Assembly (NCBI GenBank): GCA_024434115.1 | Contig: QMIT01000009.1 | Location: 214,165-278,164 of the forward strand | Origin: Chloroflexota bacterium | GTDB lineage: Bacteria > Chloroflexota > Anaerolineae > Aggregatilineales > J027 | Length of the DNA stretch: 64,000 nucleotides | Reading direction: 5' to 3' | Shown: in pieces, positions 26,130-29,749 of the stretch | How positions within the stretch are numbered: position 1 is the stretch's first letter | Layout: each line of letters begins with the position of its first letter | Translations under genes and position numbers: made by a program | Notes under the pieces: generated by a model | Told to the model about the DNA's origin: nothing | Database searches by the model: none | The model's input: the letters and a program-made list of their open reading frames with translations, nothing else

Positions 26130-26159
26130 TTGACAATGGGCGGGCACGACGTTTAAAAT
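26130..26159 (+). promoter_or_regulatory. Promoter of the T-box leader
   Basis: TTGACA (26130-26135), an 18-base spacer and TAAAAT (26154-26159), starting nine bases after the LCP stop codon. The expected start is near 26166, just upstream of Stem I. Confidence 0.75.
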
Positions 26160-26165
26160 CGTTGT

Positions 26166-26550
26166 ACCTTACAAATTGATATGCCAATGGCTTTGAAGGG
26201 GAATAGTAGGCCAGTGTCGCAGCGAGTTGGGGATGGTGGAAACCCGACAATGGTGGATTCGACACACACCATAAAAGGCTAAACTCGCCCCGGAGCCGCA
26301 CAGTTGAAATGATAAAGTAGACTGTGCCGTAAAAGCGCACGTTACGCGACAATTAAGTGGATGATATGGGCCTGTAGCTCAGCTGGGAGAGCGCTTCAAT
26401 GGCATTGAAGAGGTCAGGGGTTCGAATCCCCTCAGGTCCACCAAATTTGTTAGAGAATTGTCATCAATCAGGATGGTACCGCGAAATCCCTTTCGTTCCT
26501 GTCAGCTAAAAATGGCTTGATAGGGTAGATGAGAGGGATTTTTGTTTTTT
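26166..26550 (+). promoter_or_regulatory. Leucine T-box riboswitch leader, interrupted by a tRNA gene
   Basis: Stem I has base arms GGCT/AGCC (26189/26294) and GGGG/CCCC (26198/26288), and the loop-E AGTA at 26205-26208. The AG bulge AGCGAG is at 26221, and the distal loop GGTGGAA (26235-26241) fits GGUGNRA. Opposite AGTA lies AAACTCG, with CTC (26284-26286) as the likely leucine specifier. Stem II is GCACAGT/ACTGTGC (26298/26321). The T-box AGGATGGTACCGCG spans 26470-26483. A competing terminator, AAATCCCT/AGGGATTT plus T-run, covers 26484-26550. TGGT matches a tRNA ACCA end. The tRNA-Ala gene lies between the Stem II/III part and the T-box. Uncharged tRNA-Leu should favour read-through toward leuS. 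Confidence 0.9.
26368..26443 (+). tRNA. tRNA-Ala (anticodon GGC), inside the T-box leader
   Basis: A full 76-base cloverleaf. Acceptor GGGCCTG/CAGGTCC; D arm GCTC-AGCTGGGA-GAGC; anticodon stem CTTCA/TGAAG with loop ATGGCAT (anticodon GGC); T arm AGGGG-TTCGAAT-CCCCT. The CCA end is encoded (26441-26443), unlike tRNA-Gln and tRNA-Leu in this window. No separate promoter or terminator is visible, so it should be cut from the T-box leader transcript by RNase P and RNase Z. Confidence 0.97.
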
Positions 26551-26690: not shown

Positions 26691-26837
26691 GTGAGCAAGA
26701 AAGCTGAAAATAACACTCGTATCGCTGACCGCCTGCGGGAGCTTCTTAATACGCTTGGTAGAATACTGCAACCGACGCCGCCTGTTCCTCAACCGATTCC
26801 AGTGCGGGAGCGTTCACGGCGCTTAGATAAACGTTAA
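26691..26837 (+). CDS. Small basic Pro-rich protein, 48 residues
   Basis: The GTG start is preceded by AAAGGAG at six bases, one of the best ribosome sites in the window. The product has a charged N-terminus, an amphipathic helix (TRIADRLRELLNTLGRIL), a proline stretch (PTPPVPQPIPV) and an Arg-rich tail (RERSRRLDKR). No signal peptide and no family recognised. It has its own CRP-like promoter and terminator, so it may be a free-standing regulated gene between the T-box and leuS. Alternatively, the transcript could act mainly as RNA. Confidence 0.55.
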   Translation: MSKKAENNTRIADRLRELLNTLGRILQPTPPVPQPIPVRERSRRLDKR

Positions 26838-26907: not shown

Positions 26908-26938
26908 GTTGCATTTTTATAAGTAAAGGGAGATGACG

Positions 26939-29749
26939 ATGACCGACCAGCAAAAAACGATGACCTATGTCCCGTCAGAAGTAGAAGCTAAGTGGCGCGA
27001 AAAATGGGAGCAAGATGACCTATATCGCAGCCAAATTGATCGTAGCCGCCCTAAATATTATGCGCTGACGATGCTGCCCTATACCAGCGGTGATCTGCAT
27101 ATCGGTCATTGGTATCCGATGGCTCCGTCTGATGCGCGTGCCCGTTTTATGCGGATGCAGGGCTATAATGTAATGTTTCCGATGGGCTTTGATGCGTTTG
27201 GGTTGCCCGCCGAAAACGCCGCCATTCAGCGCCGTATCCATCCTAAAACATGGACGTATGCCAACATCAAACGGATGGAAGGTCAAATGAAAAAAATGGG
27301 GGCGATGTTTGATTGGTCACGCGAGGCCATTAGCTGCGACCCGGAATACTACAAATGGACGGAATGGTTTTTCCTGAAGTTCTATGAAAATGGCCTAGCC
27401 TATAAAAAAATGTCATCGGTGGATTTCTGCCCGAACTGCAATACAACGTTGGCACGTGAGCAGGTCGTTGGCGAAGATCGCGTTTGTGAACGCTGCGGGA
27501 CACCCGTCATCAAAAAAGACCTAGACCAATGGTTTTTCCGCATTACCAAATATGCCGAAGAACTGCTGGACTACAGCAAGATTGATTGGCCGGAGCGTGT
27601 CCGGTTCATGCAGGAAAATTGGATCGGACGCAGTGAAGGGGCCTATGTCACCTTCATGACCGAAGATGAAGATCCCATCGAAATCTTTACCACACGTCCC
27701 GATACACTGTGGGGCGCGACTTTTATGGTGTTGGCCCCCGAACATCCGTTAGTACAAAAAGTGACGACCCCGGCCCAACAAAATAAAGTGGCGGCTTATA
27801 TCGAAGCGGCTGGGCGCAAGTCGGAAATTGATCGTACCGCCGAAGGAAAAGAAAAAACGGGGGTGTGGACGGGTGGTTATGCCATTAACCCGGTGAATCG
27901 GGAACGGATTCCGATTTGGATTGCCGATTATGTGCTGTTGACCTATGGCACGGGGGCGATTATGGCAGTGCCAGCCCATGATGAACGCGACTTCGCTTTT
28001 GCCCGTAAATTTAGCCTGCCGATTATCCCGGTGATTCAGCCCGAAGGGGTTGAACCACTAAAGGGTGATACGATGGCTGAGGCATGGTCAGGGTCAGGGG
28101 TGATGGTCAACAGTGGCCCATTCAATGGCACGCCTGTGAATGAAGAGAAGGGCAGCAAAAATCCCGGTATCAAAGCAGTGACGGCATGGCTGGAAGATAA
28201 TCAGATCGGCAAACTGGGCATCAATTATCGCCTCCGCGATTGGCTAATCAGCCGTCAGCGCTATTGGGGTGCGCCAATTCCAATTATCTATTGCGACAAC
28301 TGCGGGGCAGTGCCTGTCCCCGAAAGTGATCTACCCGTGCTGCTGCCAGACGATGTGGAATTTATGCCAACGGGTGAAAGCCCACTGCGCTCACACCCCG
28401 GTTTCCTAAATACGACCTGTGCCAAGTGCGGCGGCCCGGCCAAACGTGAAACCGATACGATGGATACCTTTATGTGCTCATCATGGTATCAATATCGCTA
28501 TCTATCTCCTTGGGATAATGATGAGGCGTTTGATCCTCAAGAAGCGGCGTATTGGCTGCCAGTGGATACCTACACGGGTGGGATTGAACACGCCACGATG
28601 CACCTGTTGTACACACGTTATTTCACCAAAGCCATGCGTGACTGCGGCATTTTTGATGATACCATCGCCGTCATGCGCCAAAACGGGGCAACCGAGGCCG
28701 AAATTGAGCGTATTTTTAATGAACCCATGATTGTCCTACGCAATCAGGGCATCATTTTGGGTGAACCCCGCGATGGGCATATCATTGTCGCATCGGGTCG
28801 TTACGATGGGCACAAATTCATGGCGAATGATGTGGCGGTGATTGGCTCATTTGAAGATGCCCCCCCCGCGGGCGCGACAATTGTCGTGGGCGAAGTGACC
28901 AAACGTAGCGAAAATACCCTGACCATCGAAACACCCGAAGGCCGGGATGTGATTGTCGAAACTGGCCCGGACACCACTTTTGAAATCGCTGGGTTTGGGG
29001 CAGGCGGCGGTATTGACCAAATCAAATATCGCTTGGACGTTGAAAAGATGTCCAAGAGCAAGGGTAATGTGGTCAACCCCGATCAGATTGTGGAGCAGTA
29101 TGGCGCGGACACTACCCGTGCCTATATGATGTTTGCCTTCCGTTGGGAGAAGGGTGGCCCGTGGGATAGTCAAGGTATCAAGGGTGTGGTGCGCTGGCTG
29201 GAGGACGTGTGGAATATCGTCCACGCTGGCCCACCGTCGGTTGCGGCAGGTGAAGATACCAGCAAAGCGGATCGTGATCTGCGGCGTAAGGCACATCAGG
29301 CCATTAAACGAGTCACCGACGACATGGGAGCATTCAGCTTTAACACGGCGGTGGCAGGACTGATGGAATTCAAAAATGCCGTCCAACGGGCGGGCAATGT
29401 CAGCGTCGAGGCATGGCAAGAGGCCGTTGAAACCATGCTGAAATTGATGGCTCCGGTGACGCCATTTATCACGGAGGAGTTATGGGCACGCATGGGTCAA
29501 CCCTACAGTATCCATAATCAGCAGTGGCCTGTGTATGATCCTGCTATTGCCGCCGAGGATGAAATTGAATTGGTGATTCAAGTGAATGGCAAGGTGCGTG
29601 ATCGTATCGTTGTGCCTGCCGGGGTCACACAAGAGGAAGCGACACAATACACATTGGCCTCGCCTGCCGTCCAGAAATATTTGGAGGGCAAGCAGCCACG
29701 CAAGGTCATCTACATCGCTGACCGCAAGATGATTAGTGTCGTGGTCTAG
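26939..29749 (+). CDS. leuS: Leucyl-tRNA synthetase
   Basis: The 936-residue class Ia synthetase charges tRNA-Leu with leucine using ATP. HIGH is at residues 54-57 (DLHIGHWYPM). Zinc-like clusters are CPNCNTT...CERCG, CDNCG and CAKCG. The editing domain contains FTTRPDTLWGATFMV and the TYGTGAIMAVPAHDERD stretch, and KMSKSKGN lies near residue 703. The C-terminal tRNA-binding and VQVNGKVRDR domains are present. Between HATMHLLYTRYF and KMSKS is a large leucine-specific insertion with an extra helical piece (MRQNGATEAEIERIF). ATG 26939 has AAAGGGAG at a good distance; ATG 26933 is too close. Regulated by the T-box upstream (inference). Confidence 0.97.
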   Translation: MTDQQKTMTYVPSEVEAKWREKWEQDDLYRSQIDRSRPKYYALTMLPYTSGDLHIGHWYPMAPSDARARFMRMQGYNVMFPMGFDAFGLPAENAAIQRRIHPKTWTYANIKRMEGQMKKMGAMFDWSREAISCDPEYYKWTEWFFLKFYENGLAYKKMSSVDFCPNCNTTLAREQVVGEDRVCERCGTPVIKKDLDQWFFRITKYAEELLDYSKIDWPERVRFMQENWIGRSEGAYVTFMTEDEDPIEIFTTRPDTLWGATFMVLAPEHPLVQKVTTPAQQNKVAAYIEAAGRKSEIDRTAEGKEKTGVWTGGYAINPVNRERIPIWIADYVLLTYGTGAIMAVPAHDERDFAFARKFSLPIIPVIQPEGVEPLKGDTMAEAWSGSGVMVNSGPFNGTPVNEEKGSKNPGIKAVTAWLEDNQIGKLGINYRLRDWLISRQRYWGAPIPIIYCDNCGAVPVPESDLPVLLPDDVEFMPTGESPLRSHPGFLNTTCAKCGGPAKRETDTMDTFMCSSWYQYRYLSPWDNDEAFDPQEAAYWLPVDTYTGGIEHATMHLLYTRYFTKAMRDCGIFDDTIAVMRQNGATEAEIERIFNEPMIVLRNQGIILGEPRDGHIIVASGRYDGHKFMANDVAVIGSFEDAPPAGATIVVGEVTKRSENTLTIETPEGRDVIVETGPDTTFEIAGFGAGGGIDQIKYRLDVEKMSKSKGNVVNPDQIVEQYGADTTRAYMMFAFRWEKGGPWDSQGIKGVVRWLEDVWNIVHAGPPSVAAGEDTSKADRDLRRKAHQAIKRVTDDMGAFSFNTAVAGLMEFKNAVQRAGNVSVEAWQEAVETMLKLMAPVTPFITEELWARMGQPYSIHNQQWPVYDPAIAAEDEIELVIQVNGKVRDRIVVPAGVTQEEATQYTLASPAVQKYLEGKQPRKVIYIADRKMISVVV

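Follow-up and report, generated by a model that had tools for sequence, protein, structure and literature searches.

How can a T-box riboswitch keep its fold when a complete tRNA gene lies inside it, and what would control the output of that tRNA? The question arises from a 64,000-nucleotide stretch of DNA from a Chloroflexota bacterium, hereafter the window, for which a first-pass annotation had described a leucine T-box leader with all of its conserved parts in order but split by a tRNA-Ala(GGC) gene. We examined the leader, the tRNA, their promoters and their relatives in other genomes.

The leuS leader is a leucine T-box

The Rfam model RF00230 aligned from end to end to positions 26184-26503 of the plus strand (model positions 1-219; 86.3 bits, E 4e-18). 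Together with the predicted fold, this match confirmed the reported order of parts, and the alignment includes Stem I, whose support by a covariance model had been regarded as decisive. The features of the locus are as follows.

26130-26159, + strand: sigma-70-type promoter TTGACA-18-TAAAAT before Stem I (sequence; 11 of 12 consensus matches)
26190-26296, + strand: T-box Stem I, with AGTA at 26205-26208 and the leucine specifier CUC at 26284-26286 (RF00230 alignment)
26299-26326, + strand: T-box Stem II (Rfam alignment; CACAGUU/GACUGUG pairing in the sequence)
26328-26345, + strand: predicted Stem IIA/B pseudoknot region (Rfam alignment)
26355-26366, + strand: purine motif AAGUG (RRRxG, 26355-26359) and 5' strand of Stem III (26360-26366) (fold; covariation in 47 distinct homologues)
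26368-26443, + strand: tRNA-Ala(GGC) gene in the Stem III loop; CCA encoded, G3-U70 present (ARAGORN; RF00005, 65.9 bits)
26459-26467, + strand: 3' strand of Stem III (26459-26465) and conserved AA (26466-26467) (fold, covariation)
26469-26501, + strand: antiterminator with the 7-nt T-box bulge UGGUACC (26474-26480) (fold; Rfam alignment)
26487-26550, + strand: intrinsic terminator, hairpin 26487-26538 plus U run (fold, -27.7 kcal/mol, z -5.5)
26691-26837, + strand: small ORF of 48 aa between terminator and leuS (sequence; similar ORF in relatives)
26933-29749, + strand: leuS, leucine--tRNA ligase (TIGR00396 leuS_bact, 967.7 bits; Pfam editing and catalytic domains)

In the predicted fold, the terminator shares the 3' half of the antiterminator, which makes the two structures mutually exclusive. 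The CUC specifier agrees with the downstream leuS, and tRNA-Leu(GAG) was found in the same genome. With its full-model covariance match, Stem I specifier, RRRxG-Stem III-AA motif and a UGGN-bulge antiterminator opposed to a terminator, the leuS leader is by sequence a transcriptional leucine T-box, for which read-through with uncharged tRNA-Leu is predicted. At 86.3 bits the match does not reach the Rfam gathering score of 93, a shortfall that probably stems from the insert penalty; relatives with the same tRNA insert reached 99.1, 94.8, 125.2, 119.7 and 112.1 bits. A Pfam search with the small ORF at 26691-26837 gave no match.

The other eight T-boxes of the same genome contain no tRNA. On contig C13 of this genome (L001, 1418-1489), a tRNA-Thr(CGT) gene is followed after 12 nt by a different T-box (139.8 bits), in tandem and not nested.

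Stem III encloses the tRNA

The tRNA had been placed between the Stem II/III part and the antiterminator. It does precede the antiterminator, but the fold and covariation put it within the loop of Stem III itself, where GAUGAUA (26360-26366) pairs with UGUCAUC (26459-26465) around it. In recent work (PMC7583486), Stem III counts as part of the aminoacylation sensor, for which an RRRxG-Stem III-AA motif is described; this motif is kept around the nested tRNA as AAGUG and AA.

We analysed covariation in 47 distinct leaders having a single RRRxG candidate, using an alignment in which the tRNA was removed and replaced by a TTCG spacer, a construct that serves pair counting only. Six Stem III pairs were formed in 86.5% of the cells, with changes on both sides in 100 cells. 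None of 500 shuffles paired as well, and sliding the partner strand by 1-3 columns reduced pairing to 21-50%. Because Stem III covaries and the slid controls are far lower, the helix enclosing the tRNA is under selection. The earlier suggestion that the T-box fold could outlast the insertion thus gains support, since the tRNA sits on a Stem III that is intact and covarying. The form of Stem III varies: a few relatives (L045, L067, L077 and L132) have a short one or one that overlaps with the tRNA.

The nested tRNA-Ala(GGC) is probably a working, essential gene

A full tRNA-Ala(GGC) within the leader was likewise found by ARAGORN and by RF00005 inside the RF00230 match, with a cloverleaf, the GGC anticodon, G3-U70 and A73. 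It is the single tRNA-Ala(GGC) found in its own genome. By counts based on draft assemblies and a sequence pattern, exactly one such gene occurs in 16 of 16 carrier genomes from several phyla and, within the order, in 98 of the 99 matching genomes, those lacking the T-box included, while the remaining genome has two. G3 and U70 are present in all 92 homologues of the nested tRNA, and U precedes the gene at position -1 in 63 of them; CCA is encoded in 59 of the 92. In eight ORFs of the window, alanine is encoded most often by GCC (162 of 368 codons). Given its single copy, the conserved G3-U70 and the prevalence of GCC, the nested gene is very probably a working one and probably essential, and its single copy also leads us to infer that mature, charged tRNA-Ala(GGC) comes from this locus. 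tRNA-Ala(UGC) was not found in the assembly of this genome and may lie in a missing rRNA operon.

These properties bear on two other readings of the element. Its location in a riboswitch stem could suggest a tRNA-like riboswitch domain that is no tRNA gene, which we consider extremely improbable: all homologues have a complete tRNA with the GGC anticodon and G3-U70, it is the sole tRNA-Ala(GGC) found in carrier genomes, and loci that have lost the T-box retain it behind a promoter of its own. Alternatively, the 3' end of the nested tRNA might pair in cis with the UGGU bulge and bias the switch, adding an alanine input. The A73-CCA end does fit UGGU, but it is not free before processing, 33 of the 92 homologues encode no CCA, and the Stem I specifier is for leucine; this pairing is therefore very unlikely to operate.

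The nested layout recurs in several phyla

The suggested search of Chloroflexota genomes for the layout, by Rfam T-box matches and tRNA finding, showed that it recurs there and in further phyla: it is present in five genomes of the genus, throughout the order and beyond the phylum. Within the order, blastn against 41 genomes and Rfam scans detected it in other families. When species genomes were scanned for a pattern combining a tRNA T-loop and a T-box, at least 120 stretches matched, and among the 80 matches listed ARAGORN found a correctly placed tRNA-Ala(GGC) in 74. Carriers belong to Chloroflexota, Thermomicrobiota, Bacillota (including Syntrophomonas, Thermosyntropha, Desulfofundulus, Pelotomaculum and Symbiobacterium), Armatimonadota and Coprothermobacterota, along with single bins of other phyla. 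In the sampled carrier groups, Rfam matches showed whole T-boxes surrounding the tRNA, and a leucyl-tRNA synthetase signature followed in nearly all loci with enough sequence. A simple search detected the CUC specifier in 68 of 71 related leaders; the three misses are leaders cut by the searched segment, and in one of them, L103, CUC was seen on inspection. Repetition over so many assemblies and phyla led us to reject chance or an assembly artefact as the explanation of the layout.

Pattern counts, which are lower bounds, put the number of genomes with the pattern at about 38 or more out of 399 for the window's phylum, 65 or more out of 299 for the phylum that includes Syntrophomonas, and 13 or more out of 43 for an Armatimonadota-type phylum. 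A model search (R1) of the 399 genomes, scoring 8 candidates per genome, gave at least 29 matches. Among the loci searched, no nested tRNA of another isotype and none before another synthetase gene was seen. In a quick LeuRS tree, carriers largely track phyla (6 label changes, against a minimum of 5), which fits long vertical descent of the layout and is also compatible with old transfers.

Several pattern matches were discarded. Besides L107, which is truncated at the edge of the retrieved sequence, the rest of the 80 comprised three chance matches in Nocardia (L097, L156 and L166), in which a tRNA end lies near a terminator with no T-box, and L102 and L114, which have no tRNA-Ala at the locus. 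Five of the 43 pattern matches in the window's phylum (G343, G256, G149, G165 and G386) lack a tRNA end; the one in G343 (L246) precedes leuS and has a T-box match without a tRNA. In this last leader, a leuS T-box of the same class, the Stem III loop is filled by a repetitive stretch of about 65 nt.

As a separate observation, some leuS T-boxes bearing tRNA-Ala(GGC) have a tRNA-Ala(CGC) gene directly upstream; this holds for genomes of family f40 and for some members of the window's class (L159, L173, L222, L234, L235, L236, L239, L240 and L242). No promoter was seen between tRNA-Ala(CGC) and the T-box in L159.

A single promoter precedes leader and tRNA

In the window, the promoter at 26130-26159 is the only good one seen for leader and tRNA. 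We scored promoters in 66 related leaders as matches, out of 12, to TTGACA-17-TATAAT. Before Stem I the mean was 10.1, and 46 of the 66 leaders scored at least 10; immediately ahead of the nested tRNA the mean was 6.4, the level of shuffled sequence, and none of the 66 reached 10. A separate start for the tRNA would have spoken against the nested reading, and no promoter of its own was seen in T-box-bearing genomes.

The order also contains relatives, mostly of one family, that lack the T-box. An Rfam search of four of these loci (L049, L051, L330 and L334) found none. As L049 and L330 are the same place, the set comprises 12 distinct loci, all from one order, and every one of them has a near-consensus promoter (10-11 of 12) for the tRNA-Ala(GGC) itself. 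No promoter of the tRNA's own above 8 of 12 was seen in 19 T-box-bearing loci. An exact test on these loci took them as independent of shared descent and included L049 and L330 separately. In L051 the tRNA still stands before leuS, whereas no leuS was found within 1.5 kb of the tRNA in L049 and L331-L339, so the linkage can be lost after loss of the T-box.

Two further features of these loci were noted. ORFs like the 48-aa ORF of the window follow tRNA-Ala(GGC) in L049, L051 and L334. In L051, at about 1511-1583, an inverted repeat (TTCACATCA ... TGATGTGAA) still encloses the tRNA-Ala(GGC).

Proposed mechanism

Based on this arrangement, we consider it very probable that one strong promoter yields tRNA-Ala constitutively and that the T-box behind it acts as a conditional terminator for leuS. 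The single promoter before Stem I would drive leader and tRNA together. Because the tRNA lies after the promoter and before the terminator, every leader transcript should contain it, and the T-box would decide only on leuS; with each transcript traversing the tRNA, its production would be constitutive. The tRNA would fold as a separate domain at the tip of Stem III and, as its own domain, should leave the T-box free to form. The terminator behind it would end most transcripts, which would become tRNA precursors, and uncharged tRNA-Leu(GAG) would let transcription continue into leuS. Cleavage by RNase P and maturation of the 3' end would then free the tRNA and leave a leuS mRNA with a new 5' end. 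Processing is probably later than the switching decision, since antiterminator and terminator follow within about 100 nt of the tRNA. The T-box would thus separate a strongly transcribed tRNA gene from a synthetase gene that is needed less, and one short transcript seems to double as tRNA precursor and leucine sensor.

This order of elements also decides on the proposed link between tRNA-Ala output and leucine starvation. T-box and tRNA do share one transcript; however, the only promoter seen comes before the tRNA and the terminator after it, so that terminated and read-through RNAs both carry it. The link was consequently not upheld, and we consider it very improbable.

The nesting itself may have a regulatory role. 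As suggested in the first-pass annotation, excision of the tRNA by RNase P and Z might part the sensor from the antiterminator. Cutting by these enzymes, or a delay of cutting by the nearby paired Stem III, might set the time window for T-box switching, and cutting might stabilise the read-through leuS mRNA. The distance from the end of Stem III to the RNase P site is one base in the window and a few bases at most in many relatives, the nesting is kept across deeply separated LeuRS lineages, and cleavage of a T-box leader has a precedent in B. subtilis thrS, cut by RNase J/Y (PMC3542257). On the other hand, conservation may merely reflect the tRNA's need for the promoter, and the spacers around the tRNA vary from 0 to 18 nt across relatives, which argues against a finely tuned device. 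We therefore regard regulatory processing as possible but rather unlikely next to a constitutive tRNA followed by a conditional terminator. With similarly low confidence, we put forward the broader idea that these loci form a widespread, ancient class of split T-boxes: an essential tRNA gene would serve in them as one structural domain of the aminoacylation sensor, and its excision by tRNA processing enzymes would limit or fix what the switch decides, so that tRNA maturation is coupled to synthetase expression.

Implications and comparison with known systems

T-boxes sense tRNAs; this leuS leader T-box additionally encodes one. Since the layout is found across several phyla and on leuS lineages that diverge deeply, it is no single-genome curiosity. 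It allows a direct test of the structural load that Stem III tolerates, bears on how tRNA maturation and switching, both co-transcriptional, can take place on the same RNA, and poses the question of why a single essential tRNA remains tied to an unrelated synthetase. Many such T-boxes score under the curated Rfam cut-off, which may explain why they were missed in annotation.

The first-pass annotation knew of no described T-box with a tRNA gene in this position. Agreeing with it, we found no description of a tRNA gene within a riboswitch domain in the open-access literature searched, nor in the available sections of the T-box database paper PMC7778990 and the T-box survey PMC2494555. That search covered a part of the T-box surveys, which leaves priority uncertain. 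T-boxes, tRNA operons and the cleavage of leaders are already known; the tRNA gene nested in a riboswitch domain is what appears to be new. Unexplained insertions in T-box domains are reported in the available sections of PMC7583486; they resemble the present case in adding sequence to Stem III or Helix A2, but none is described there as a tRNA gene. The B. subtilis thrS/thrZ leaders, cut by RNase J/Y (PMC3542257), are alike in that a T-box leader RNA serves as an endonuclease substrate, as predicted here, whereas RNase P and 3' tRNA processing enzymes would be expected to act on the leuS leader.

Among the closest known systems is the transcriptional leuS T-box of RF00230 itself, with which the locus shares the AGTA/CUC Stem I, Stem II, RRRxG-Stem III-AA, the UGGN-bulge antiterminator, the terminator and leuS; it differs in that the Stem III loop contains a complete, probably essential tRNA-Ala(GGC) gene. 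tRNA genes can be cotranscribed with mRNA, as in the E. coli tufB tRNA operon, where a tRNA is likewise cut from an RNA shared with a protein gene. There, however, the tRNA stands beside the genes, while here it lies inside a riboswitch domain and before a conditional terminator.
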